Shown: piece by piece, positions 1-11,928 of the stretch | Layout: each line of letters starts with the position of its first letter | Numbering within the stretch: position 1 is the first letter of the stretch | NCBI GenBank assembly: GCA_028691625.1 | Contig: JAQUYZ010000017.1 | Span: forward strand, 1-11,928 | DNA length: 11,928 nucleotides | Reading direction: 5' to 3' | Origin: Eubacteriales bacterium | GTDB lineage: Bacteria; Bacillota; Clostridia; Peptostreptococcales; Anaerovoracaceae | Translations under genes and position numbers: made by a program | The notes under the pieces: generated by a model | The model's database searches: none | What the model saw: the letters and a program-made list of their open reading frames with translations, nothing else | Told to the model about the DNA's origin: nothing

Positions 1-232
1 TTCCGTAAAGGTCTTCAAAATGGTCAACCGAGTCGGTCCATTCTACAAATGTCGCGTCTGTTGATACGGATTTTCTGTATTCCAGCCAGCCGGGGTTTAC
101 ATTTTCGTTAAAGTTGGAAATGGAATCCTTAACGATTCTGTCTTTTTCTTCTTTCGTTAATTCAGGCCTTTCAATATAGCCGACAACTCTCTGAGCTTCT
201 TTTAATGCTAATTCTTTGTTACATGCGGTCAT
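1..232 (-). CDS. Class III (PLP) aminotransferase, putrescine aminotransferase-like, N-terminal part
   Basis: Only the first 77 codons lie in the window; the rest, including the PLP-binding lysine, is beyond base 1. The ATG at 232-230 follows a strong AGGAGG ribosome binding site about 9 bases upstream. The stretch ENVNPGWLEYRKS followed shortly by VEW closely resembles the N-terminal segment of E. coli PatA (EHVNPGFLEYRKS...VEW), as I remember that sequence, ahead of the aminotransferase fold. PatA-type enzymes move the amino group of putrescine to 2-oxoglutarate in the cytoplasm. The substrate cannot be fixed from this fragment, since related class III enzymes use ornithine or other diamines. 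A sigma54-like promoter lies upstream at 301-319, which agrees with the known sigma54 control of E. coli patA. The family call is fairly secure; the exact substrate is inferred. Confidence 0.72.
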   Translation of the reverse strand, partial: MTACNKELALKEAQRVVGYIERPELTKEEKDRIVKDSISNFNENVNPGWLEYRKSVSTDATFVEWTDSVDHFEDLYG

Positions 233-300
233 GGTATAAAACCTCCTCAAATTTTAACTAATAACTCTTTTCTAGAGTAGCTAACGATTACCCTTATATA

Positions 301-319
301 CTTCAAATTCCGTGCCAAC
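301..319 (-). promoter_or_regulatory. Candidate sigma54 (-24/-12) promoter for the aminotransferase gene
   Basis: Read on the minus strand the site is GTTGGCACGGAATTTGAAG. The -24 half (TTGGCACG) matches the sigma54 consensus exactly. The -12 half is TTGA instead of TTGC, with the correct spacing. It would start transcription near 290, giving a leader of about 58 nt before the ATG at 232. The imperfect -12 element is the main doubt. Confidence 0.5.
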
Positions 320-411
320 ATATACATTTTATAAAAATAAATTATAATTTTCTGAATTTACGTCCAATTTCAAGGGTTTGCCCCTTTGCTCCCGACTCCT
401 TGCTGTGCATC

Positions 412-424
412 ATTGTCAGACAAT
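412..424. promoter_or_regulatory. Palindrome ATTGTCAGACAAT, possible activator site
   Basis: A 13-base interrupted palindrome (ATTGT, three bases, ACAAT) lies about 100 bases upstream of the -24 element of the candidate sigma54 promoter. That is a usual distance for an enhancer-type upstream activating sequence. The 233-489 intergenic region also holds a short inverted repeat at 372-386 (AAGGG/CCCTT). No clear terminator was found after the radical SAM gene. The role is inferred from position only. Confidence 0.3.
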
Positions 425-489
425 TATTCTCACTTTTTATAAATATAGCGCAAATGCATCTCATTCTTGAGAAAAATGTAAAGGAAGAG

Positions 490-1644
490 TCATATATAAC
501 CAAACATCATGTCGTTTATTTTTCTATCCCAAACGGCCTCTTCAGAAATGGAGCCGGCAAGCCGGGCCAGCTTTTCCAGGCGTTCGGTGGGCAGCAGCTC
601 AAGATCCGACGGTCGGGTAACCATTCCGGAGCGCCGTGCAAGCTGAAAAATCTTCTGCCGGAACTCCGGCATGCTGAAATATTCATCAATGATAGACAGC
701 ATTTTCTGCCGATCCGTATCGAAGCTCCCCTGGATCTCCTGCAGCAGATTGATGATATGATCGCTTGCAAGCAGACCTGTGCAGTTTTTTGTATTTTCGA
801 TCAGCAGTTTGATTTCTGTCAACTTGTCGTTGTCGCTGCACAGTTGATAGCTTCCATTCAGATAATCCTGCCATAGCCCTGTACCCTCTTTGATTACCGC
901 TGTTCTGATCCGGACAAAGTCCGGATTGATTTCACTGACAACGCGAGCGGTCTCCAGTGCATTCTCCCCCGACAGCGTCTTACCGCCGATCCCCGGCATA
1001 AAATAGACCGAGAGCTCGACTCCCGCCTCCCTGATGTGCTTCCCTGCAGTGATCTCCTGCTCCGAAGTAACGCCCTTGTTGATCAGCTCCAGTACTCTGT
1101 CCGAACCGGATTCAAAGCCGGAATGGATCCGGTCCAGACCGGCCGCCTTCAGCTCTTTATATTGATCCGCACTGATTTTGGACAGTGTTTCCGCCCGCCC
1201 GTAGGTCGTGACACGTTTTATGCTGGGCAGCCTCTCACGCAAATACTGAAGAATCTCCAGAACTCTTTCGGTTTTTACTGCAAGGGAATTCCCGTCCTGC
1301 AAAAATACATTTTCTCCGCCGTGGGCAAGCCAGCGATAAACGAGATAGTAGCAATTCTGTTCCTCCCGCGTCATGTGATTCAATTTTTCCAAAGCAGCCT
1401 TTTTGTTCCAGGACCCGTCTTCTCTCTGATATTCGCTGGCGATTTCTGCATACTCAGCCATCACGTCAATGTCTCTCTTGATGCTTTCAACGGGAAACGC
1501 CTTGAAACCCTCATGCTTATATAGCTCACAAAATTTACAGCGATTCCACGTGCAGCCCTCTGTAATTTGAAGCAGCAAACTGTTCGCCTCGCTGGGTGGG
1601 CGGATCGGGCCGATCCGATATGTGGTTTGTTTTTCGTCAGTCAT
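490..1644 (-). CDS. Radical SAM protein (COG1032-like), substrate unknown
   Basis: This is a 384-residue cytoplasmic radical SAM protein. The cluster motif is C31-TWNR-C36-KF-C39, with four residues between the first two cysteines instead of the textbook three. This CX4CX2C spacing is known in a COG1032-type subfamily whose members read CTHNKC.FC. Further family signs are VFLQDGNSL near residue 115, a TYGRAETL segment, GLDRIHSGFESGSDRVL and YFMPGIGGK, which fit the SAM-binding barrel strands. Residues about 60-105 form a charged segment between the cluster motif and the next barrel strand. No B12-binding or SPASM domain is evident. The start at 1644 follows a GGAG site. It is transcribed in the same direction as the aminotransferase, but 257 bases and a separate candidate promoter lie between them, so a shared operon is uncertain. 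The reaction is not known. Confidence 0.82.
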   Translation of the reverse strand: MTDEKQTTYRIGPIRPPSEANSLLLQITEGCTWNRCKFCELYKHEGFKAFPVESIKRDIDVMAEYAEIASEYQREDGSWNKKAALEKLNHMTREEQNCYYLVYRWLAHGGENVFLQDGNSLAVKTERVLEILQYLRERLPSIKRVTTYGRAETLSKISADQYKELKAAGLDRIHSGFESGSDRVLELINKGVTSEQEITAGKHIREAGVELSVYFMPGIGGKTLSGENALETARVVSEINPDFVRIRTAVIKEGTGLWQDYLNGSYQLCSDNDKLTEIKLLIENTKNCTGLLASDHIINLLQEIQGSFDTDRQKMLSIIDEYFSMPEFRQKIFQLARRSGMVTRPSDLELLPTERLEKLARLAGSISEEAVWDRKINDMMFGYI

Positions 1645-1675
1645 AAGTACTCCTAACCTTAATCATTTTGATCAT

Positions 1676-1684
1676 ATTATATCA
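1676..1684 (-). promoter_or_regulatory. Extended -10 promoter of the radical SAM gene
   Basis: The minus strand reads TGATATAAT, a perfect TGnTATAAT extended -10 element, 31 bases upstream of the start codon at 1644. It predicts a short leader of about 25 nt that carries the AGGAG ribosome binding site. No good -35 box is seen 17 bases upstream, which is acceptable for extended -10 promoters. Confidence 0.5.
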
Positions 1685-1758
1685 TTAATATATACCCGGA
1701 TATCAAAAATATAATATCTCATGTTGATTCCTTCGTTTGACAATTTACTGATTCTTTA

Positions 1759-1795
1759 GTAGGTCAAGGACGCTTGCGCGTCCAAGCCCCTATTC
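1759..1795 (-). ncRNA. Group II intron domain VI with bulged branch-point A
   Basis: On the minus strand a hairpin GGACGC-GCAA-GCGTCC has a GNRA loop. A lower stem TAGG/CCTA encloses an unpaired A in TTGACCTAC, six to seven bases from the proposed 3' end. This is the expected place for the branch-point adenosine used in lariat splicing. Confidence 0.65.
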
Positions 1796-1796
1796 A

Positions 1797-1830
1797 AAAC
1801 CGTACGTGCGCTATTAACGCATACGGCTTT
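1797..1830 (-). ncRNA. Group II intron domain V (catalytic hairpin)
   Basis: The 34-nt minus-strand sequence begins AAAGCCGTATGCG and ends CGCACGTACGGTTT, the hallmark domain V hairpin. It holds an AGC catalytic triad at its base and a short unpaired loop. Domain V is the most conserved part of group II introns and holds the catalytic metal site, so this supports an active ribozyme. Confidence 0.85.
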
Positions 1831-1848
1831 CCACTCTACATTCATTTT

Positions 1849-3240
1849 CTACCTGTAAAACAGACTAACCTTAATTGTCGGCTCAAGTAGTGGCAAAGTT
1901 CTTAGGAGTCCATTGTAGAACGTGTCATAGTTGTAACTCTTTCTCTGACTTCTTCGATTTAACCATTTAAATAACAGCCACTTTGTCTGCGCAAGGAAAT
2001 TCTTCACATCCTTTGTGTTGTCCGTAACACTGTAATATTGATAGTGTCCTCTCAACTTCGCATTAATTGTTTTGAATATCAGTTCAAGTGGTATTGTTCT
2101 ATGGTTCTTTATCCATTCCTTCATTGCCTTTATCTTGCTTCTGTATTTCTTCTTGCTCGTTTTCACTCTGCACCGAAAGAATTCTTTCTTGCCATTCATT
2201 CCGCAATAGAATGTAAAACCGAGAAAATCGAAGGTTTCAGGTTTACCTTCTCCTCTCATCTCTCTGTTATGCTTGGCAAATCTCCCGAATTCAAGTATCC
2301 TCGTTTTCTCCATTGCCAGTTCTAATCCGAATTTCTCGAATCTTTTCACCAGTTCTTGGTAGAAAACTTCTGCTTCCCATTTGTTCTGAAAACAACATAC
2401 AAAATCGTCACAGTATCGTATTAGATAGCTCTGTCCCTGGCATTTCCGCTTTACAATTACATCAAACCATTTATCGAGAACGTAGTGCAGGTATACATTC
2501 GCAAGAATTGGACTCGCTCCATTTCCCTGCGGTGTTCCTTTCTCACTATCAAGGTATTTCCCTTCTTCCATGATTCCTGCTTTCAAAAACTTTTCGATTA
2601 TCTCAAGGAACCTTCTGTCCGCAATGTCATGTTGTAAGAATTTCATTAACCATTCGTGATTTACGTTATCAAAGAAACCTTTGATATCTGCCTCTACTAC
2701 GTAGTTCGTTTTCCGATACTGTACATCTTCGATGACCTCGCGCACTGCCTGATGGCAGCTTCGATTCGGTCTGAATCCATAGCTCTCGTTATGAAACTTC
2801 GGTTCATATATCATCGTCAGTATCTGCGCAGTTGCATTCTCAACCAGTTTATCCTCATAGCAGGATATCCCTAGTGGCCTTTTCTTGTTGCTCCCATCCT
2901 TGGGAATGTACACTCTCCTTGTGGGGTTCGGCTTGTAGCTTCCGCTCTTCATCCTTTTCACAAGATTTTCAAGGTTTGCTTCCAGATTCAGTTCATAATC
3001 ATCCTTCGTCACTTTATCAACTCCATATGCCTTATGCCGGTTCATTTGTTTATGAACAACCCTAAGCGTATCAACGTTGATATATGATGCAAGATTTTGA
3101 ACTTTCTTGTCTGTTTTGTCTGCCTTTGCGATATTAAATTGTATTCCAAGTAATTCGTTCACCACGTTTGCCAGCTCTCCTATTGTCTGCATGATAGCTA
3201 ACTTACTTGAAGCTATAAAGTGTCCGCCCCTTCCCTCCAT
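1849..3240 (-). CDS. ltrA: Group II intron reverse transcriptase/maturase
   Basis: This 463-residue intron-encoded protein helps its intron splice and copies it into DNA. Reverse transcriptase blocks are visible in order: KPNPTRRVYIPK (about 103-114), RPLGIS (121-126), YGFRPNRSCHQA (154-165), the first catalytic aspartate in VVEADIKGFF (D185), GTPQGNGASPILANVYLH (235-252), and the second catalytic motif YCDD (276-279) in place of the more common YADD. FLGF (339-342) and the LRGHYQYYSV region (about 397-405) mark the end of the RT and the maturase (X) domain. The C-terminus stops at 463 without a CxxC/HNH endonuclease, as in several intron classes that use nicked or single-stranded DNA at replication forks. 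The ATG at 3240 has only a weak ribosome binding site. The reading frame is full length with no disruption. Confidence 0.93.
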   Translation of the reverse strand: MEGRGGHFIASSKLAIMQTIGELANVVNELLGIQFNIAKADKTDKKVQNLASYINVDTLRVVHKQMNRHKAYGVDKVTKDDYELNLEANLENLVKRMKSGSYKPNPTRRVYIPKDGSNKKRPLGISCYEDKLVENATAQILTMIYEPKFHNESYGFRPNRSCHQAVREVIEDVQYRKTNYVVEADIKGFFDNVNHEWLMKFLQHDIADRRFLEIIEKFLKAGIMEEGKYLDSEKGTPQGNGASPILANVYLHYVLDKWFDVIVKRKCQGQSYLIRYCDDFVCCFQNKWEAEVFYQELVKRFEKFGLELAMEKTRILEFGRFAKHNREMRGEGKPETFDFLGFTFYCGMNGKKEFFRCRVKTSKKKYRSKIKAMKEWIKNHRTIPLELIFKTINAKLRGHYQYYSVTDNTKDVKNFLAQTKWLLFKWLNRRSQRKSYNYDTFYNGLLRTLPLLEPTIKVSLFYR

Positions 3241-3732
3241 CTGCTTTCACAGGTTTCTACGGTACTATGAGCGAATCGGACTTCCTGCCACACATTTGGT
3301 TTCCTGTCGCATTTCTTTGATTCAGTTTCCATACCTAAAAACTTAGGATGTAACAGGATCTCAGCTGTTCCGATGACATACTTATCATCAACCTCGCCAA
3401 GCTCTCAGACTGGGGGAAGACTATATGCCTCTCACCATAACGATTCATATACTGTTGTCTGCGACGAACTAGAACGCCTCGACTCTTCCGACTGAATAAT
3501 AATTTCCCAGCTCAATCACTTCACTTGCGTTTCGGCTCTGTTGCTCCCTGTCCTACGCTTAAACCTAGTGTTACCACTTCGGCTCCAAGGACTCGGTACG
3601 GGCAGTTGGTTAGACCTTACCCGATAGGATTTCCCTACTGTATGTTCATCAGCTTACCAGAGCTTTGCAGAATTTCTTCCGCTCGCTAGGGGAAATCAGC
3701 TACGCTGATTTCGCAGCTCGCACCCTGATATC

Positions 3733-3741
3733 ATTATATCA
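3733..3741 (-). promoter_or_regulatory. Second extended -10-like motif (TGATATAAT) next to the intron 5' end
   Basis: The minus strand repeats the same TGATATAAT found in front of the radical SAM gene, within a shared 13-base stretch TTAATGATATAAT. As a promoter it would start around 3726, just outside the intron's 5' end at 3723, and read into the intron. It could equally be a protein-binding repeat or a chance AT-rich match. Confidence 0.25.
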
Positions 3742-3794
3742 TTAAGGCAGAAAAGAACGATACATACGATTTCGTGCAAAGTGAGGGAACGGAT

Positions 3795-5147
3795 ATGGAA
3801 CTCGCAAACTGTGAATTGATACTGGAACATCTGCCCGGCGCCATGGTCATCGATTTGCAGGGCACTATCGTTTATATAAACAAGCAGTGTGCTGATTACA
3901 TCGGAACAGCTCGTTCCCATGCGCTTGGACGTGATGTCCGGGAGATCTTTCCCGATACAAAAATGATCGATTCGCTGAAATTGGACAAGCCGGAGATCGT
4001 GTTTTACAACAGTTTTGGAATCGGGATCAGTGTTGAAGTGCCCATCTTTTCAGAGGGTGTCAAGGTCGGGCTTTTGGAATACGATCTCGTACAGGGGTCT
4101 GAGGTCTTATATGAACTGGCGGATAATTATACCCACTACCTGGATCAGGAATTGAAATATCTCAAGCACCAGATCAATGAACTCCGAAGCACGAAGTACT
4201 CGATCAACAATATCATCGGTGGATCAGAAGAGATCATGCGGATGAAAGAAACAATCATCTCTGCAGCGAAGACAAATTCAACGGTTTTGATTTACGGCGA
4301 GACAGGTACGGGGAAGGAACTGGTAGCCCATTCCATTCACAGTCTCAGTACACGAGGGAAACATAATTTTATTAAACTCAATGCTGCAAGCATTCCGGAA
4401 AATCTGGTGGAATTGGAACTCTTCGGATACGAAGGCGGAACGTTTACGGGAGCCGACGCCAAAGGCAAAAAGGGAAAATTCGAGCTTGCCGACAAGGGAA
4501 CCCTTTTCATTGATGAAATCAACCAAATGCCGTTGCCGGTACAGCCGAAGCTTCTGCGGGCCCTTCAGGAGAATGAGATTGAGAGGATCGGCGGAACCAG
4601 GAGCATCCCTGTAGATGTGCGTATCATTGTAACGACAAATCAGGATCTGAGAACTATGGTTCAGGATAACAAGTTCCGGAACGACTTGTTTTACCGGCTT
4701 CATGTCATCGTAATCAAGGTGCCGCCGCTCAGAAAAAGACTGGAGGATATCCCGCTGCTGACTGATTATTTTGTTCGCTATTACAACAAAGCCATGGGGA
4801 GGAATATCAGCCATATCGATGAACAGATCTACCATATGTTCCGGAATTTTGACTGGCCCGGAAATGTCAGGCAGCTTCAAAACGTCATCGAGCGCGGGGT
4901 CAGCTTTGCAAAAGGCGAGCATCTTGGACTCGGGGATCTGGATCTGGACGATGGTGCGCGAAGTGCAATCCCGGCGAGGGGTCCGGATGTTCCGGACCTG
5001 ATCAAAACGGTAAAGAACGATGCAGAGCGAAAGCTGATCGCAGCGACGCTGGCAAGGTTTCAAGGAAATAAGACAAAAACAGCCGAATCTCTTGGGATTT
5101 CAAGATCGCTCCTGTATCAAAAAATGTACAGACTCGGCATAAAATAA
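3795..5147 (+). CDS. Sigma54-dependent transcriptional activator (PAS, AAA+, Fis-type HTH)
   Basis: This is a 450-residue enhancer-binding protein that uses ATP hydrolysis to open promoters bound by sigma54 RNA polymerase. Residues about 1-100 resemble a PAS sensor (LEHLPGAMVIDLQGTIVYINKQ), followed by a linker of about 40 residues that may be a coiled coil. The AAA+ domain has Walker A GETGTGKE at 168-175, the sigma54-contacting loop GTFTGA at 215-220 (usual form GAFTGA), Walker B GTLFIDEI, the arginine finger region RNDLFYRLHV, and WPGNVRQLQN. The C-terminus NKTKTAESLGISRSLLYQKM is a Fis-type helix-turn-helix. There is no response-regulator receiver domain, so a small ligand or redox signal through PAS is likely. 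A GTG seven codons upstream (3774) lacks a ribosome binding site, while the ATG at 3795 has GTGAGGG 7 bases upstream. It lies directly before a sigma54 promoter and probably controls the transporter-urease operon. Confidence 0.9.
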   Translation: MELANCELILEHLPGAMVIDLQGTIVYINKQCADYIGTARSHALGRDVREIFPDTKMIDSLKLDKPEIVFYNSFGIGISVEVPIFSEGVKVGLLEYDLVQGSEVLYELADNYTHYLDQELKYLKHQINELRSTKYSINNIIGGSEEIMRMKETIISAAKTNSTVLIYGETGTGKELVAHSIHSLSTRGKHNFIKLNAASIPENLVELELFGYEGGTFTGADAKGKKGKFELADKGTLFIDEINQMPLPVQPKLLRALQENEIERIGGTRSIPVDVRIIVTTNQDLRTMVQDNKFRNDLFYRLHVIVIKVPPLRKRLEDIPLLTDYFVRYYNKAMGRNISHIDEQIYHMFRNFDWPGNVRQLQNVIERGVSFAKGEHLGLGDLDLDDGARSAIPARGPDVPDLIKTVKNDAERKLIAATLARFQGNKTKTAESLGISRSLLYQKMYRLGIK

Positions 5148-5154
5148 AGAGACT

Positions 5155-5191
5155 TGTCATTACCAACTGACAGTGTGAGTTTATAATGACA
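5155..5191. promoter_or_regulatory. Inverted repeat TGTCATTA-N21-TAATGACA, candidate activator binding site
   Basis: Perfect 8-base arms at 5155-5162 and 5184-5191 lie just after the regulator stop codon, about 120-155 bases upstream of the -24 element. That is the usual range for an enhancer site of a sigma54 activator. A second partly symmetric site CTTGGAAATTCAAG (5202-5215) and flanking direct repeats ACGGGCAT (5191-5198 and 5217-5224) lie next to it. Which of these the activator binds cannot be told from sequence alone. Confidence 0.4.
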
Positions 5192-5229
5192 CGGGCATTC
5201 GCTTGGAAATTCAAGTACGGGCATAAGAG

Positions 5230-5255
5230 GCGTCAGTTTCAACTGACGCTTTTTT
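5230..5255 (+). terminator. Rho-independent terminator of the regulator gene
   Basis: A perfect 9-bp stem GCGTCAGTT/AACTGACGC with a very short loop is followed at once by six T. It separates the regulator transcript from the operon that starts at the sigma54 promoter downstream. Confidence 0.88.
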
Positions 5256-5308
5256 GATTTTGAGAACGAACGAAAGACGAATAATGTTGATATTTCAATC
5301 CTTTTATG

Positions 5309-5327
5309 CTTGGCATAATCTTTGCTC
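5309..5327 (+). promoter_or_regulatory. Sigma54 (-24/-12) promoter of the transporter-urease operon
   Basis: The sequence TTGGCATAATCTTTGCT (5310-5326) matches the sigma54 consensus TTGGCAC-N5-TTGCT with a single change (C to T after GGCA). The invariant GG (5312-5313) and GC (5324-5325) have the required ten bases between them. Transcription would start near 5337, about 48 bases before the transporter start codon. It lies downstream of the terminator and immediately after a sigma54 activator gene, which makes the assignment strong. Confidence 0.82.
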
Positions 5328-5384
5328 TTTATTGTAATAATCAATAAACAGTGATCAGATTCTATTATTAAGGAGGTAAATTTC

Positions 5385-6743
5385 ATGGAATCAACCTATG
5401 GCATTATCAGTTTATTACCAGTCATCGTCGTAGTCGTTACGGCGATCATTACCAGGCGGACAGTAGAACCATTGATTATTGGAGCTCTGGTGGGCTATGT
5501 TATTCTCTACAAGGCATCGTTCTTTACCGAGTTTCTCTATGGGTTTTCGAGTGTCATAGCTGAGAATTCCTGGTACATTCTTGTATTCGGGTTTTTCGGT
5601 ATGGTTATTGTTCTGCTTGAAAAATCCGGCGGCGCCCTCGGTTTTGGGGATTGGGGCGCAAAAATTTGCAAATCCAGGGGCATGACAGTATTAATCACAT
5701 GGATTCTTGGAATTTTCGTGTTTATCGACGATTATCTGAATAATCTCGGTGTAGGCACCGCCATGAGAACAATTGCGGACAGGAACAAGGTGGCGAGGGA
5801 ATTCCTGGCCTATGTCGTCAATTCGACGGGGGCCTGCATTTGCGTACTGATCCCTATGTCATCCTGGGCCATCTTCATGATGGGCATCTATGACAACGTC
5901 GGCGTATCCGGTTCCGACGGAACCTCGTATTCGGCTTATCTTGGAACAATTCCTTTCATGGTTTATGCTTGGATCGCCGTAATTCTGGTACCTCTGTTCG
6001 GGTTTAAGATCATTCCGACCTGGGGTCCAATGAAGAAGGCCTGGCTGAGGGCGGAAAACGGCGACGTATATTCTGAATATTATCATCAGAACAGCATAAC
6101 GGATATGGAAGGCTATACCGACATCAAAAAATCGAGCCCCTGGAATTTCTTTGTTCCAATGGCTGCCCTCATCGCGGTTACGCTGATCACCAATGACATC
6201 CTGATCGGAATGGCTGTCGGGTTTGTAGTATGCCTCGTACTTTACATTCCTCAAAAGCTCATGACAATTGGACAGTTCTGTGATCATTCGGTGGAAGGTT
6301 TCAAAAGCATGGTTCTTGTTACGGCCATCGTTATTTCTGCCTTTGTTCTTCAGAAGGCAAATACGGAGCTTGGGCTCACAGAATTTGTAATCTCCGTTGC
6401 GGAACCTGTCATGACTCCGGCGCTTCTTCCTGCCATTGCCTTTATTATTTGTGCGTTTATCGCAATGTGTACCGGCAGCTTTTGGGGTACCATGGCGATC
6501 GCTTCGCCGATCCTGATCCCTCTGGCACTGACGCTGGGAGTCAACCCGCTTCTGGTGGGCGGCGCGATCGTATCCGCCGGAGCCTTCGGAAGCCATGCAT
6601 GCTTCTATGGCGATGCAGCTACCCTTGCATCGGCGGTCACCGGGATCTCCAACAATGAGTATATGAGAAAAGTACTTCCGCTGTTGGTCCTGCCTGCCGG
6701 GCTTGCGATCATAGGTTTTGTCATTCTTGGTATTGTAATGTAA
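5385..6743 (+). CDS. NhaC-family (Na+/H+ antiporter-like) membrane transporter
   Basis: This 452-residue integral membrane protein has about 11-12 hydrophobic segments and a strong AAGGAGG ribosome binding site. Two signatures identify the Na+/H+ antiporter NhaC family (PF03553): FIDDYLNNLGVGTAMR at about 113-128, and STGACICVLIPMSSWAIF at about 147-164. Both correspond to conserved segments of NhaC/MleN-type proteins, which exchange Na+ and H+, sometimes together with an organic acid such as malate/lactate. A hydrophilic loop near residues 205-245 lies in the middle. As the first gene after the sigma54 promoter it is probably made together with urease. It may import the enzyme's substrate or balance Na+ and pH when ammonia is released; the sequence does not decide. 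No canonical urea channel (UreI, UT, UrtABCDE) is present in the window. Confidence 0.87.
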   Translation: MESTYGIISLLPVIVVVVTAIITRRTVEPLIIGALVGYVILYKASFFTEFLYGFSSVIAENSWYILVFGFFGMVIVLLEKSGGALGFGDWGAKICKSRGMTVLITWILGIFVFIDDYLNNLGVGTAMRTIADRNKVAREFLAYVVNSTGACICVLIPMSSWAIFMMGIYDNVGVSGSDGTSYSAYLGTIPFMVYAWIAVILVPLFGFKIIPTWGPMKKAWLRAENGDVYSEYYHQNSITDMEGYTDIKKSSPWNFFVPMAALIAVTLITNDILIGMAVGFVVCLVLYIPQKLMTIGQFCDHSVEGFKSMVLVTAIVISAFVLQKANTELGLTEFVISVAEPVMTPALLPAIAFIICAFIAMCTGSFWGTMAIASPILIPLALTLGVNPLLVGGAIVSAGAFGSHACFYGDAATLASAVTGISNNEYMRKVLPLLVLPAGLAIIGFVILGIVM

Positions 6744-6783
6744 TAATACATAACACATATAATGTAACAATACATAACACATA
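6736..6783 (+). repeat. Tandem duplication of a 24-bp AT-rich unit
   Basis: Two adjacent 24-base copies (6736-6759 and 6760-6783) differ at one base. The unit starts TAATGTAA and ends AACACATA. The first copy includes the stop codon of the transporter gene, and the second ends just before the ribosome binding site of the next gene. It looks like a recent slippage duplication; no function is evident. Confidence 0.85.
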
Positions 6784-6799
6784 ATAAGGAGGAATTTCT

Positions 6800-7015
6800 A
6801 TGAAAAGTTCATCACCGTTTTGCCCCTGCACAGATTATTCGTGCCAGTTCAATCCTCATAACCACGACAAAGGATGCAATCTTTGTGTGGAGGACAGTGT
6901 AAAGTGCAGAGAGATTCCCAAATGCTTTTTCCTTCGTGTGACAGACAGCATTGAAGGCTTTGAAGACTGGTCTTTCGAGCATTTTGCAGAATTGGTACTC
7001 AGAAAACAGAAATAA
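6800..7015 (+). CDS. Small cysteine-rich protein, possible DUF6485 relative
   Basis: This 71-residue soluble protein has seven cysteines in its first 42 residues: C8, C10, C15, C26, C29, C36 and C42. The pattern CPCT....C.....GC..C...KC.EIPKCFF resembles small clostridial proteins of the DUF6485 type, whose function I do not know; this family link is from memory and tentative. The cysteine spacing suggests a zinc, nickel or iron-sulfur binding domain, with histidines at 20 and 22 as extra possible ligands. The C-terminal part (about residues 48-68) is acidic and aromatic and probably helical. It has an excellent AAGGAGG site at 6785-6791, with its start 8 bases further on, and lies between the transporter and urease genes on the same strand. 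A role in metal handling for the nickel enzyme is possible but only inferred from context. Confidence 0.7.
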   Translation: MKSSSPFCPCTDYSCQFNPHNHDKGCNLCVEDSVKCREIPKCFFLRVTDSIEGFEDWSFEHFAELVLRKQK

Positions 7016-7200
7016 AAAAAGTGGAAATGACGGAATCAAAGATTCCTATTTCCACATGTCGCCACAAGGGCGACAACGTTTAAGGTGCTTTCTTTAATAT
7101 TACGTCATATCGCTTTCAGCGATATTTCCTACATAATAAAAAAAGGAGGGCGGATCATTCCGGTCTGCCCTCCTGATCAACCACACTGGAGGGATGTCAA
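7016..7200 (+). promoter_or_regulatory. Structured leader of the urease genes with several hairpins
   Basis: Between the small gene and ureA lie 185 non-coding bases containing four stem-loops. They are 7021-7055 (GTGGAAAT/ATTTCCAC outer stem, GGAATC/GATTCC inner stem, AAA loop), 7057-7075 (TGTCGCC/GGCGACA), 7107-7125 (ATATCGCT/AGCGATAT) and 7145-7173 (10 bp including one G-T pair). None is followed by a T-run on this strand, so none looks like a simple terminator here. The first hairpin could end transcription on the opposite strand, where it would be followed by seven T. I do not recognise a known riboswitch family. It may process, stabilise or regulate the urease mRNA. Confidence 0.55.
7145..7193 (+). 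promoter_or_regulatory. Possible translational switch around the ureA ribosome binding site
   Basis: GCCCTCC (7167-7173) can pair with GGAGGGC upstream (7145-7151), as part of a 10-bp hairpin, or with the ureA ribosome binding site GGAGGG (7188-7193) downstream. The two pairings exclude each other. The first would leave ureA open for translation and the second would mask it. A further competing pairing, GATCA/TGATC (7153-7157 with 7174-7178), exists. This arrangement is typical of translational expression platforms, but no experiment or known family supports it here. Confidence 0.45.
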
Positions 7201-7560
7201 ATGAAACTCACAGTTAAGGAAATGGAACGCCTGATGATATTTGATGCGGCTGAAATTTCTAGAAGAAGATGGAAAAGAGGCGTAAAGCTTAATTATATTG
7301 AGGCGACGGCCATCATCTGCGATGAAATCCTGGAAAGGGCCCGGGACGGGAGATGGCTCGTGAACGACCTTGTGGATATTGGAACAAGAATTATAACCGA
7401 AGAGGATGTCATGGAAGGTGTCGCTGCCCTGGTCCCAAGCATTGATCTGGAAGCGCTGTTTCCCGACGGAAGCAAGCTGGTATCCATTCAGGATCCCATC
7501 CGGCTGGAAAAACGCGAGGAAGCGCTTGGCTTTGATGATCTGCTGTCCATGCAGTACTGA
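7201..7560 (+). CDS. ureA: Urease subunit gamma
   Basis: This is the small structural subunit of the nickel enzyme urease, which packs with UreB and UreC into the (UreABC)3 trimer. The core motifs KLNYIEATAIICDEILERARDGR, VMEGVAALVPSIDLEALFPDGSKLV and QDPI match the family along the first 100 residues. The protein has 119 residues, whereas UreA is usually about 100. The extra C-terminal tail after DPI is charged and ends DDLLSMQY. The start follows GGAGGG by 7 bases. ureB begins 16 bases after the stop, so the two are probably translated together. UreA is separate from UreB here, unlike the fused form in Helicobacter. Confidence 0.95.
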   Translation: MKLTVKEMERLMIFDAAEISRRRWKRGVKLNYIEATAIICDEILERARDGRWLVNDLVDIGTRIITEEDVMEGVAALVPSIDLEALFPDGSKLVSIQDPIRLEKREEALGFDDLLSMQY

Positions 7561-7576
7561 AGGAGGGGGCCGAACT

Positions 7577-7951
7577 ATGAAATATGAAATCGGACAGGTA
7601 ATTTACAGGGACGATCCCATTCTAATCAACGAAGGGCCGTCTGAACTTAAAATTGTCGTAAAAAATACCGGCGACAGAACGGTACAGATCTGCTCCCACT
7701 ATCATTTCTTTGAAGTGAACCGGGCTTTGGTTTTTAACAGAGCGGCCGCCTACGGCATGCATCTTGACATTCCTTCCGGCACCGCTGTCAGATTTGAACC
7801 CGGCACTGACAGAACGGTAACCCTTGTCCCTTATAAGGGCACTCGAAAACTATACGGTTTTGCCGGATGGGTGAACGGACCCGCAGACGACCCCCTGATC
7901 AGGGAGGAAGCCTTCCGGAAATGTAAGGAGGCGCTTGGTCATGACATTTAA
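7577..7951 (+). CDS. ureB: Urease subunit beta
   Basis: This 124-residue structural subunit of urease starts at the ATG at 7577, 8 bases after AGGAGGGGG. The motifs VKNTGDRTVQICSHYHFFEVNRAL, LDIPSGTAVRFEPG and YGFAGWV are the conserved core of the beta subunit. It is somewhat longer than the Klebsiella form because of a C-terminal helix-like tail (REEAFRKCKEALG), as in the beta part of other ureases. Its end overlaps the start of ureC by 11 bases, which points to translational coupling. UreB lies against UreC in the trimer and is thought to help the accessory proteins reach the active site. Confidence 0.94.
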   Translation: MKYEIGQVIYRDDPILINEGPSELKIVVKNTGDRTVQICSHYHFFEVNRALVFNRAAAYGMHLDIPSGTAVRFEPGTDRTVTLVPYKGTRKLYGFAGWVNGPADDPLIREEAFRKCKEALGHDI

Positions 7952-9659
7952 AATGAAAAGGAATGAGTACGGTGATATCTGCGGACCAACAGCCGGAGAC
8001 AAGATCCATCTGGCTGATACCGGACTGATAATAGAAATTGAAAAGGATTACAATCAGGGAAATTACGGAGATGAAATGATTTCCGGCGGCGGCAAATCCT
8101 TCCGTGACGGAATGGGCATGATGTCGGGAACCCCCAATCGGGACGGAGTCCTTGATCTTGCATTCACCAACGCCGTGATCATGGATCCCATTCTGGGTAT
8201 CGTAAAAGGTGATATCGGGATCAAAGACGGGGTGATCGTTGGGATCGGAAAGGCCGGAAATCCCGATACGATGGACATAACCCCCGGTCTGGTGGTGGGC
8301 GTCGGCACGGAGGTCGTTTCCCTGGAGGGCGGTATCGTTACAGCCGGCGGCCTGGATGTGCATATTCATTTTGAATCGCCCGGACAGGTATGGGAAGCAA
8401 TGGCAAACGGAATCACAACCATGATCGGCGGCGGTGCAGGATCAAAGACCCTGGTCATCGAAACACCCGGACCCTGGCACCTGAGGCAGATGATCGAAGC
8501 CCATGAGAGCCTCCCCGTCAATGCGGGTTTTCTGGGAAGAGGCAATTCAGCCCTTCCGGAGGCGATCCGGGAACAGGCTCTTTACGGAGCCATCGGGATG
8601 AAAATCCATGAAGACTACGGTGCGACGCCACAGGTGATCAAAACCTGCCTGGATGTGGCCGATGAACTGGATTTTCAGGTCCAGCTTCATTCAGACACCC
8701 TCAACGAGAGCGGATTTGTGGAGGATACTCTGAGAGCGATCGGCGGAAGGACACTCCATACCTATCATTCGGAAGGCGCAGGCGGAGGCCACGCTCCGGA
8801 TATCATGCGGGTGGTGGGAGAACCTAATCTCATTCCCTCCTCCACAAACCCGACCAATCCCTATACGGTCAATACCGTAGCGGAGCATCTTCAGATGATT
8901 ATGGCCGCCCACAACCTGAACCCCAGGGTTCCTGAGGATGTTGCCTTTGCGGACTCCAGGATCCGGGGAGAGACCATCGCGGCGGAAGACGTGCTTCACG
9001 ATATGGGGGCCATCAGTATTATGGCTTCGGATTCCCAAGGAATGGGACGTGTGGGAGAGTCCGTGCTAAGGGCATGGCAGCTGGCATCCAGGATGAAACA
9101 GCAGAGAGGACCGCTTCCCGAGGATCAGTCCGGAAACGACAATGAGCGTGTCCTCCGGTATCTGGCAAAGTATACGATCAACCCGGCCATCACAATGGGC
9201 ATAAGCAATTATGTCGGTTCCTTGGAATCCGGCAAATTGGCGGATATTGTCGTGTGGGACCCAAAGTTTTTCGGAGCGAAAGCAAGGATGATCTTTAAAT
9301 GCGGCGCACTGGTCTATTCTCACACGGGAGATGTCAACGCATCCATTGAGTGGAGCCAGCCGATCATATACAGAAAGCAGTACGGGGCAATGGGCAGCAA
9401 CTGCAGCCGTTATTGCCGGATCTTCGTAACACAGGCGGCAATTGACAACGGTCTTGCCAGCCTGCTGCCGAATTCGGGAGAAAAGCTGCTGCCCGTCAGA
9501 AATACCAGACATCTCGGAAAAGCGGACATGATAAGAAACAGCTTCTGCCCGAACATAAAAATAGACCCGGAAACCTACAAGGTCTATGTCAACGGAGAGC
9601 AGATCCAGAGTGAACCCGCAACGGTTTTGCCTCTCGCACAAAAATATTTTTTCAGGTAA
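7941..9659 (+). CDS. ureC: Urease subunit alpha (catalytic), divergent active-site flap
   Basis: This 572-residue catalytic subunit belongs to the amidohydrolase superfamily; normal ureases split urea to ammonia and carbamate at a dinickel centre. The metal ligands are present: H141 and H143, K221 (the carbamylated lysine, in KIHEDYG), H250, H276 and D364. The catalytic flap histidine H324 and R340 are also kept. Compared with Klebsiella UreC as I recall it, the flap cysteine (C319) is Ala323, the following H321 is Asn325, A363 is Gly367, HEDWG reads HEDYG, HIHWICPQQ reads HIHFESPGQ, and the loop between GGG and PGPW is three residues shorter. The ATG at 7941 is preferred over a TTG at 7935 because AAGGAGG ends 10 bases before it. 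It is a urease-fold enzyme with the metal site intact; the substrate may or may not be urea. Confidence 0.93.
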   Translation: MTFKMKRNEYGDICGPTAGDKIHLADTGLIIEIEKDYNQGNYGDEMISGGGKSFRDGMGMMSGTPNRDGVLDLAFTNAVIMDPILGIVKGDIGIKDGVIVGIGKAGNPDTMDITPGLVVGVGTEVVSLEGGIVTAGGLDVHIHFESPGQVWEAMANGITTMIGGGAGSKTLVIETPGPWHLRQMIEAHESLPVNAGFLGRGNSALPEAIREQALYGAIGMKIHEDYGATPQVIKTCLDVADELDFQVQLHSDTLNESGFVEDTLRAIGGRTLHTYHSEGAGGGHAPDIMRVVGEPNLIPSSTNPTNPYTVNTVAEHLQMIMAAHNLNPRVPEDVAFADSRIRGETIAAEDVLHDMGAISIMASDSQGMGRVGESVLRAWQLASRMKQQRGPLPEDQSGNDNERVLRYLAKYTINPAITMGISNYVGSLESGKLADIVVWDPKFFGAKARMIFKCGALVYSHTGDVNASIEWSQPIIYRKQYGAMGSNCSRYCRIFVTQAAIDNGLASLLPNSGEKLLPVRNTRHLGKADMIRNSFCPNIKIDPETYKVYVNGEQIQSEPATVLPLAQKYFFR

Positions 9660-9671
9660 ACGGTGGAATAA

Positions 9672-10160
9672 ATGATAGCAGAGAAAGTGTTGGGAAATCT
9701 TCGCGATGCGGAACAGGGAACGCGAAGAATTGACAGAGTCAGGCTCACCCATGACGAAATTGCAAAGCCTCATCAGAAAGTGACGACAGAAAGCGGCCGG
9801 ATAATCGGAATTTCATTGCCGGAGGGAGAGCACCTCCACAACGGCGATATCCTCTATCAGGATGGTTCCGTGATCATCGTCATCGATCTGAAGGAAGAAG
9901 AAGTATTTGAAATCAGACCGAAAAACAATATGGAATGGGCAAAGGCGGCATTCAATGTCGGGAACATGCATCAACGGGCGTATCTCTACCATGACTGCAT
10001 CCGGGCGCCCTATGATTCTGTTTTGGAAAAAATGATGGAGATTCTGGGAGTGGATTATTCCAGAGAAATCAGGAAACTGGACGGGATTCCCGCCAATCTG
10101 TCCGCTTCCGGCAGTCGTCATGCGCACAGTCACCACCACCATGACGATCATAATCTTTGA
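9672..10160 (+). CDS. ureE: Urease accessory protein UreE (nickel metallochaperone)
   Basis: This 162-residue protein delivers nickel to the UreG/UreF/UreD complex that matures urease. The N-terminal part has the peptide-binding beta fold, and the C-terminal ferredoxin-like metal-binding domain contains GNMH with H100, the conserved dimer-interface nickel ligand. A histidine-rich tail at 150-160 (HAHSHHHHDDH) can store extra nickel, as in Klebsiella UreE. The gene starts 12 bases after ureC, with a modest GGTGG ribosome binding site. Confidence 0.94.
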   Translation: MIAEKVLGNLRDAEQGTRRIDRVRLTHDEIAKPHQKVTTESGRIIGISLPEGEHLHNGDILYQDGSVIIVIDLKEEEVFEIRPKNNMEWAKAAFNVGNMHQRAYLYHDCIRAPYDSVLEKMMEILGVDYSREIRKLDGIPANLSASGSRHAHSHHHHDDHNL

Positions 10161-10169
10161 GGGAGTGCG

Positions 10170-10853
10170 ATGAAAAAAGAACAACTTTTTATAATCCTGC
10201 AGCTTGCAGGAGGAACCTTCCCCACCGGCTCCTTCAGCCAGTCATGGGGGCTTGAGACCTTCGTGACTCATGGAGAGGTATCCGATGAAGAGGATTTCCG
10301 GAAGTTTCTCCTTGCATACGTCAATACGACGCTGGCCGGTCTGGAGGGCCCGTTCCTGTGCAGTGCGTATGATCTGGCTGCCTCCAAAAGCCTTGTCGGT
10401 CTCAGGGGGCTGGACCGGCAGCTTGCGGCTATGAAACTGACGAAAGAATCCCGGGAAGGCTGCCTTCGCACGGGAAAAGCCCTGCTGAGGATCGCCTCGC
10501 AGATAACGGCGGATCAAATTCTCACAGACTATTATGAGGGCTGCTGCGGAAGCGGGTCTTCTTATCCCGTTGCCTTTGCGCTGGTTTCAGCCAGGCTGGG
10601 CCTCACAAAGGAAGACGCGCTGAACGCGTTTCTGTTCAGCTCTGTCAACAGCCTGGTCCAGAGCGGACTCAAGCTGATTCCCCTTGGAAACATACAAGCG
10701 CAGCGAATCCTGCTGAGTCTGTACGGCGATATTGCAAAGGCAGCGGAATGTGCTTTCCGCACGGATGCAGAGGATGCCTTCGCGTTTTGCCCTGGTCTGG
10801 ACATCGCTTCCATGCAGCATGAAACCTTGCAAACACGCTTGTACATGTCTTAA
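10170..10853 (+). CDS. ureF: Urease accessory protein UreF
   Basis: This 227-residue mainly helical protein works with UreD and UreG and is thought to gate GTP use and nickel delivery. The conserved beginning FPTGSFSQSWGLET (17-30), the segment GSSYPVAFALVSARLG and the C-terminal SSVNSLVQSGLKLIPLGN are family signatures. It starts 9 bases after ureE, with a GAGGGAG ribosome binding site. The length is normal. Confidence 0.94.
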   Translation: MKKEQLFIILQLAGGTFPTGSFSQSWGLETFVTHGEVSDEEDFRKFLLAYVNTTLAGLEGPFLCSAYDLAASKSLVGLRGLDRQLAAMKLTKESREGCLRTGKALLRIASQITADQILTDYYEGCCGSGSSYPVAFALVSARLGLTKEDALNAFLFSSVNSLVQSGLKLIPLGNIQAQRILLSLYGDIAKAAECAFRTDAEDAFAFCPGLDIASMQHETLQTRLYMS

Positions 10854-10879
10854 ATAAGAAAAACTAACGGAGGGAAGCA

Positions 10880-11488
10880 ATGAGAAAGCCAATCAAGATC
10901 GGCGTGGGCGGACCGGTGGGTTCTGGGAAAACAGCACTGATCGAATGCCTATGCAGAAGACTTGCAGACGAATATGAGATCGGAGTCATCACAAACGATA
11001 TCTATACAAAAGAAGACGCCCTGATTCTGACCCGCGCGGGAGTCCTTGACCCTGTGCGGATCATCGGTGTAGAAACGGGAGGATGCCCCCATACCGCTGT
11101 CCGGGAGGACATCTCCATGAACCTCGATGCGATTGAAGCGCTGAAGCAGCGGTTTCATAATCTGGATCTGATCTTTGTCGAGAGCGGAGGAGACAATCTT
11201 GCTGCCACCTTCAGCCCCGAGCTGGTAGATGGTCTGATCTTTGTCATCGATGTGGGAGAGGGTGAAAAAATACCGAGAAAAGGCGGCCCGGGAATCACCA
11301 AATCGGATCTGCTTGTGATCAACAAGATCGACATTGCCGAATATGTTCATTGCAGCCTGGAAGTGATGGCGCGCGACACAAAAATCGCCCGGGGCGAAAA
11401 GCCATATGTGTTTTCCAATCTTTATGACGGAACGGGAGTGGATGCGATCGTCCGGTGGATTAAAAAGGACATGTTGTTTGAAGAATAG
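10880..11488 (+). CDS. ureG: Urease accessory GTPase UreG
   Basis: This 202-residue SIMIBI-class GTPase couples GTP hydrolysis to nickel insertion into UreC. The P-loop GPVGSGKT is at 11-18, the nickel-binding CPH motif at 69-71, [15 protein letters not shown] at about 101-115, and the guanine-recognition NKID at 148-151. The sequence is highly conserved, with normal length and no missing motif. A GGAGGG ribosome binding site precedes the ATG. It lies 26 bases after ureF. Confidence 0.96.
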
Positions 11489-11504
11489 CGGGGGTTTTTT
11501 AACA

Positions 11505-11928
11505 TTGAAAGGAACAGAAGGCATATTAAGACTTCGATATCGTCGCAGGCAAAGCGGCAGAACCTATATCGCAAATCAATTTTACCAGCTGCCGCTGCAG
11601 GTCCTGCCGCCGTACTATGAAGAAACTGATGGTACGGCATTCACCTATATTTTGAATCCGACGGGCGGAGTTCTGCAAAATGACCGGCTTACCGTAGATA
11701 TCACCGTCGAGAAGGGTGCCAGAGCACTGGTGACTACCCCGTCGGCCGGAAAGTTTTACAGGATGGAGGACGGCCACGGAGAGTTGACGAATTCGTTTGA
11801 AGTCGCGTCCGGCGCAGTATTGGAGTATCTGCCGGAATATAACATTCCGTATGCGGATACAAAAATTATCCAGGAAAACCTGTTCCGGGTCAGTAAGGAC
11901 TCGATTCTCATCGCGGCGGATATGATCC
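11505..11928 (+). CDS. ureD: Urease accessory protein UreD (also called UreH), partial
   Basis: The gene runs off the window end, so about 141 codons are seen. The segment FTYILNPTGGVLQNDRLTVDITVEKGARALVTTPSAGKFYR matches the conserved UreD core, where GG...GD is typical and GARALVTTP is a signature. LEYLPEYNIPY follows as expected. UreD is the scaffold that binds the urease apoprotein and channels nickel from UreG. No ATG fits the frame start; a TTG at 11505, 10 bases after a GGGGG stretch that overlaps the end of ureG, is the best candidate. The start is therefore less certain than the identity. Confidence 0.9.
   Translation, partial: MKGTEGILRLRYRRRQSGRTYIANQFYQLPLQVLPPYYEETDGTAFTYILNPTGGVLQNDRLTVDITVEKGARALVTTPSAGKFYRMEDGHGELTNSFEVASGAVLEYLPEYNIPYADTKIIQENLFRVSKDSILIAADMI

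Follow-up and report, generated by a model that had tools for sequence, protein, structure and literature searches.

Some bacteria have ureEF(AB)CGD clusters alongside other ureases, and the portion of the source available to us describes these clusters without activity data (PMC2492869). In M. smegmatis, ureEFABCGD lies beside ureABCFG, urease activity is low and there is no growth on urea; the accessible part of that account leaves the active cluster unspecified, and the case was not used here (PMC4222082). Here we analyse a urease operon of the order ABCEFGD, and in particular its alpha subunit UreC, encoded on 11,928 nucleotides (nt) of an Eubacteriales bacterium (Anaerovoracaceae; GCA_028691625.1, contig JAQUYZ010000017.1, positions 1-11,928, forward strand), a stretch that we call the window. 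Judged from its sequence, the window enzyme belongs to a distinct short-loop branch of UreC, in which the substrate-site elements of long-loop ureases are replaced in concert by a shorter loop, two acids (E145 and E174), Q248 and G367. No description of this branch or of its substrate was found by title or abstract start in the full-text literature searched, which leaves most subscription journals outside. Loci (L) and genomes (G) are cited below by our own handles.

The ureEF(AB)CGD lineage, which we equate by gene order with L088, L089 and L092-L094, shares with the window the 10-residue loop, Gln248 and Gly367, and its acids at positions 145 and 174 (as Asp) match the window's acidic positions. 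It differs in its fused ureAB, its gene order, its urt and ANTAR-type neighbours and its retention of Trp226 and Cys323; the window, with separate ureA and ureB, thus has the pocket residues of these five loci and not their cluster organization. This pocket comparison rests on the gene-order equation, and none of the members named in the available part of PMC2492869 is in it. The haloarchaeal urease of Haloarcula marismortui (L090) resembles the window enzyme in its catalytic residues and shortened loop (9 residues) and differs from it in Asn145, Cys174, Ala367 and the gene order ureBCAGDEF; in L090, L097 and L098 the loop is even shorter than that of the window. Haloarchaeal UreC has urease activity. 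The idea that a short loop is enough to indicate a new substrate was rejected as weak, since haloarchaeal UreC is also short-looped.

The window ureC (7941..9659, +; all genes below lie on this strand unless noted) is an intact reading frame from an ATG at 7941 to 9659 with no internal stops, and its 572-residue product has the urease fold and scores 812.6 bits against TIGR01792 (cut-off 680). At every position that we take to be a nickel ligand, the carbamylated Lys or a catalytic His or Arg, it is identical to Klebsiella UreC; because the nickel-binding and catalytic residues are all kept, the chemistry should equal that of urease. The surrounding pocket departs from that of Klebsiella aerogenes UreC (1fwa and related entries; the aligned row is the C319A variant, and native Cys319 is taken from the structure entry titles). 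HIHFE (residues 141-145, 8361..8375) contains the nickel ligands H141 and H143 followed by E145 (codon start 8373) in place of I138, and S146 follows in place of C139. The loop motif starts at G163 (nt 8427), and the loop, counted between GGG and PG, is 10 residues long (8436..8465) instead of 13 and includes E174 (8460..8462; C170 in Klebsiella). In KIHEDY (8601..8618), K221, H223 and D225 are retained and Y226 (codon start 8616) replaces Trp222. Q248 (8682..8684) replaces A244, A323 (8907..8909) occupies the position of the flap cysteine C319, N325 replaces H321, and ASDSQGMGR (9024..9050, from A362 to the last base of R370) retains the ligand D364 and has G367 (codon start 9039) for Ala363. 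The long-loop combination of a 13-residue loop with Ala167 and Ala363 is thus exchanged for a 10-residue loop and Gly367.

The first-pass annotation had reported the HIHFES, HEDYG and SDSQGMGR changes within 8361-9050, all of which are exactly as it gave them, and had placed them around the substrate pocket. The latter proposal agrees with an AlphaFold 2 (AF2) model in which, judged by secondary structure, the changes sit at the C-terminal mouth of the predicted barrel. E174, Q248, A323 and N325 are further changes of this type that it did not name. Its three-residue loop deletion holds as a difference in length, 10 versus 13; the short loop is a branch-wide state, and the direction of change is considered with the tree below.

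Of 206 aligned UreC rows, in which a few genes are present twice, 134 have a 10-residue loop, 9 a 9-residue loop and 63 a 13-residue loop. Column counts were made on 78 non-redundant 10-residue-loop and 40 non-redundant 13-residue-loop sequences, leaving out locus rows shorter than 500 residues, rows more than 90% identical to a retained one, several repeat loci and L124-L126. An acid (E or D) is present at position 145 in 71 of the 78 short-loop sequences and at 174 in 76, Q248 and N306 each occur in 76, and G367 in all 78; none of these states is found in any of the 40 long-loop sequences. Fisher tests give 1e-24 for position 145 and 1e-29 for 174, values that do not count independent events because the sequences share ancestry, and one or both acids are absent in 7/78 short-loop sequences. 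H141, H143, K221, H223, D225, H250, H276, H324, R340 and D364 are retained throughout, except in one short-loop row that is gapped at 221-225. The short loop is also present in all of the best 120 of 7999 homologues, that is, the 120 nearest to the query. That the pocket changes are private to the window gene is ruled out by these counts and homologues. Conservation of the cluster over so large a branch argues that it is functional and not a product of drift, and in the aligned sequences two acids and a Gln mark a pocket whose alternative architecture is conserved. Replacement of the flap cysteine (A323) and exchange of Trp222 for Tyr or Phe are, by contrast with these branch-wide states, strongest in the subgroup nearest the query: at 68.5% identity or more (n=39), Cys323 occurs in none and Trp226 in 3; at 62-68.5% (n=33), in 19 and 32, respectively; and among the more distant short-loop sequences (n=6), in 4 and 6. 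The HEDW-to-HEDY change, read earlier as one of the pocket changes, is limited to the nearest subgroup, Trp being kept in 32/33 and 6/6 of the farther sequences, and this counts against the earlier note's interpretation.

In a quick, unrooted maximum-likelihood tree of 69 UreC, built with the loop and position 145 excluded, the long-loop sequences form one side of a branch with a Shimodaira-Hasegawa-like approximate likelihood ratio (SH-aLRT) support of 99, and the short-loop and 9-residue sequences fall into several groups opposite them. Since the tree is unrooted, the longer loop could just as well have arisen by insertion on the long-loop side, and the short form may be ancestral. UreC was detected in 11/198 genomes of the order (expectation value, E, 1e-50), with a 10-residue loop in 4 (G000, the window genome; G148; G181; G187), a 9-residue loop in 1 (G106) and a long loop in 6. 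At the level of the phylum it was found in 20/398 genomes (E 1e-100), all long-looped except the window's own (10) and G453 (9), and at that of the class in 9/391 (E 1e-150), namely the window's own and 8 long; a separate UreC search gave 49 matches, and among the 20 with loci 1 was short and 19 were long. L078 (G106) and L079 (G453) represent another UreC lineage, approximately 50% identical to the query, whose loop has 9 residues and whose pocket is altered (HFETVR, HLSTAK).

From the rebuilt pocket and from the gene neighbourhoods of relatives, we tentatively favour the view that the window enzyme is a nickel hydrolase of the urease family acting on a cationic N-carbamoyl (ureido) compound, a view to which we would give somewhat less than even chances. 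In such a reaction the nickel-bound hydroxide would attack the carbonyl carbon adjoining the nitrogen, as in urease; the rebuilt site would take one substituted nitrogen together with a positively charged tail, and a compound in the style of N-carbamoylputrescine would yield an amine, CO2 and NH3. The substrate would be imported through the NhaC-type carrier encoded upstream and may come from an Amidohydro_3 enzyme under control of a sigma54 activator, and in relatives an amidase like AguB would perform the identical final step. With respect to the earlier note, its suggestion of a charged substrate is strengthened, in its cationic or hydrogen-bond-donating part, by the second conserved acid E174; its suggestion of a substrate other than urea gains from the context in relatives, which points to an N-carbamoyl compound, and loses from urt and urate/allantoin neighbours that fit urea.

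Plain urea is nearly as likely a substrate as an N-carbamoyl compound. The window enzyme could quite conceivably be a genuine urease with an alternative pocket, in which the acids and the Gln replace the hydrogen bonds that the backbone carbonyls of Ala167 and Ala363 offer the substrate in known ureases; NhaC might then, with comparable plausibility, serve pH or sodium balance, and the remaining neighbours might form a nitrogen-scavenging island. The kept catalytic residues, the UreC score above the urease cut-off and the presence of ureABDEFG all suit urea, as do the 9-residue loop of haloarchaeal UreC, which in L090 adjoins urt genes, and the finding of a single UreC in G148, G181, G187 and the window genome. 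The conserved acids without counterpart in the long-loop set or in haloarchaea speak against urea, as does redundancy: in G726 a long-loop urease, accompanied by urt genes of its own, exists apart from the short-loop operon (L075), and the clostridial genome G1240 has two different short-loop modules, L131 and L133, one of them with two activator-NhaC pairs flanking an Amidohydro_3 gene. Hardest to reconcile with urea is the N-carbamoyl-amidase-like enzyme that occupies the same module where the urease is absent.

This module emerges from the neighbours of short-loop ureABC in Clostridia. The sigma54 activator, which contains a PAS fold (3774..5147 in the window), recurs in L003, L077 and L131 (twice), with a longer version of different N-terminus in L133; the NhaC-type carrier (PF03553; 5385..6743), which has no solved relative by sequence at E 0.01, recurs in L003, L077 (twice), L114, L131 (twice) and L133; and the Cys-rich, 71-residue DUF6485 protein, encoded in frame between carrier and ureA (6800..7015), recurs in L077, L131, L133 and L007, the copies beside urease in L077, L131, L133/L002 and L007 being 75-84% identical to that of the window. 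Amidohydro_3 genes lie beside the urease in L131, L133, L114 and L007. L078 of the 9-residue lineage has both NhaC and Amidohydro_3; L078 and L114 are short contigs. Four loci, L144, L145, L136 and L146, have no urease and instead encode a carbon-nitrogen (CN) hydrolase near Amidohydro_3, and in L136 a DUF6485 gene (63% identity to the window's) sits between the two. The best family for these CN hydrolases is N-carbamoylputrescine amidase, and the nearest solved structure for that of L144 is the plant enzyme (AguB, 5h8i). The likeness of AguB to the window urease lies in the proposed reaction and the module position; as a nitrilase-family CN hydrolase it is not homologous and serves as an analogue only.

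The alternation was tallied over the 198 genomes of the order. An Amidohydro_3 search gave 24 genomes at E 1e-65 and nine at E 1e-120, the latter threshold chosen after the matches had been seen; the window genome was added as a tenth, its closest Amidohydro_3 being a piece of 168 residues (58% identical) that abuts the end of a contig. Urease is present in 4/10 (G000, G148, G181, G106), amidase in 5/10 (G125, G175, G028, G008, G020), both in 0/10 and neither in 1/10 (G108). A CN hydrolase search found 13/198 genomes at E 1e-40 and none of the 5 with a short-loop or 9-residue urease. The recurrent pair thus appears to be an amidohydrolase and an N-carbamoyl hydrolase, a pair whose second place the short-loop urease can take. 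We regard it as a plausible, if less than even, prospect that this is a urease-family nickel enzyme whose physiological substrate is a cationic N-carbamoyl compound and not urea, that it fills the role of an AguB-type amidase within a module of carrier and amidohydrolase, and that further short-loop modules of one genome serve other ureides.

Several observations weigh against the N-carbamoyl interpretation. The exclusion of urease and amidase has a Fisher p of 0.048, uncorrected for kinship and with the threshold set afterwards; the AguB-like scores (258-334 bits) fall below the family cut-off of 410; no Amidohydro_3 or amidase gene lies beside the window operon, in a genome that is 74% complete and whose closest Amidohydro_3 is the fragment noted above; G187 has the urease without Amidohydro_3 at the E 1e-120 level, G108 the module without either enzyme, and G020 has Amidohydro_3 and amidase located apart. 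L146 has a sodium/solute symporter in place of NhaC, and L007 has neither carrier nor activator within 19 kb. PAS-region identity of the activators to that of the window ranges from 21 to 56% where the neighbour is urease and from 35 to 50% where it is amidase, and in these sequences it neither separates nor unites the two kinds of loci. Other neighbours fit urea itself: urt genes adjoin short-loop ureC in L088, L092, L094 and the Paenibacillus operon L075, where UrtB, C, D and E exceed the urea-transporter cut-offs, the urt genes of other relatives being named so by annotation; urtA occurs in L089 and in L093, the latter within a urate/allantoin cluster; and in G181 an agmatinase, a urea producer, is encoded next to ureD (215.9 bits, cut-off 174.3). 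Two further searches gave little: an Amidohydro_3 search of 283 class genomes at E 1e-110 returned no match in a set with no positive control, such that the tally was not extended, and TIGR00857 gave nothing but weak fragments in the window genome.

A reading that questions the argument itself, names no substrate and overlaps the others is that Amidohydro_3, carrier, urease and amidase are merely co-regulated nitrogen scavengers, their alternation being uninformative on substrate. We consider this rather unlikely. The sample is small, Amidohydro_3 occurs without either enzyme nearby in L143, L166, L169 and L170, and L167 and L168 pair NhaC and an AguB-like gene with a D-aminoacylase-like amidohydrolase instead; yet in several families within the order the same neighbours recur, next to one enzyme or the other, and the pair of amidohydrolase and N-carbamoyl-amidase-like enzyme persists when the amidohydrolase differs (L167, L168, L171).

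In Proteobacteria and Paenibacillus, short-loop ureC is accompanied by urt genes, an aliphatic amidase or ANTAR-type regulators, and these loci bear on the possibility that the substrate is a small amide, guanidine or amidine (formamide, methylurea, guanidinium) whose cation the acids bind. An aliphatic amidase lies in or by the operon in L075 (710 bits to NF009802, cut-off 427), L092 and L094, and ANTAR and binding-protein regulators lie by L088, L089, L091, L092, L094 and L096; two acids suit a cation, though both are absent in L091 and L096. A Urt-like carrier beside amidase genes was, in the part of the source available, inferred to move amides other than urea (PMC3098086). Window-type loci have no AmiE-type gene in their open reading frame (ORF) lists, and Amidohydro_3 is present in 5 of them; scans of the window and of 9 related loci, a set that does not include L131, L133 and L144 among others, gave no guanidine riboswitch at the gathering score. 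We judge such substrates improbable. Between the substituted urea and the guanidine put forward in the first-pass annotation, the former is preferred over the latter because an AguB-like enzyme occupies the urease's place in the module and because of the riboswitch result.

The distinction matters for how ureC is counted. Named proteins of the short-loop branch are labelled urease, and ureC surveys of gut, rumen and soil would count them as urea-degrading. Should the enzyme act on a ureide amine, ureC-based counts of urea degradation are too high, and salvage of polyamine or ureide nitrogen includes a nickel-dependent route that has escaped notice; a family held to be single-substrate would then become a model of how pocket specificity shifts in an amidohydrolase around an unchanged metal centre. 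Were urea the substrate after all, the branch would still show a second way of holding it, of relevance to urease inhibitor design.

The remaining operon genes are ureA (7201..7560), ureB (7577..7951, scanned from 7571) and ureG (10880..11488), each with profile scores above cut-off; ureE (9672..10160), with a His-rich tail and NCBIfam ureE scores all below cut-offs; ureF (10170..10853; PF01730, 127.9 bits, above the Pfam gathering score); and ureD, truncated by the contig end (ORF 11406..11927; PF01774, above the Pfam gathering score), whose true start probably lies inside that ORF. Among related loci, the alphaproteobacterial L132 (9361-12296) has a short-loop ureC followed directly by a cytosine-deaminase-like amidohydrolase, below family cut-offs. 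Genes for a MoxR-type ATPase and a VWA-like protein, also scoring below cut-offs, lie by Amidohydro_3 in L113 of G181 (5954-8053) and by the activator in L144 of G125 (11519-13565). RF02514 (5' ureB small RNA) matches at threshold, antisense within ureC, in L002 (10159-10453), L005 (4125-4414) and L075 (11060-11357), probably through coding-sequence similarity. In the window itself, a group II intron reverse transcriptase (1849-3240, -) and its RNA (RF02005; 3400-3633, -) lie immediately upstream of the sigma54 regulator.
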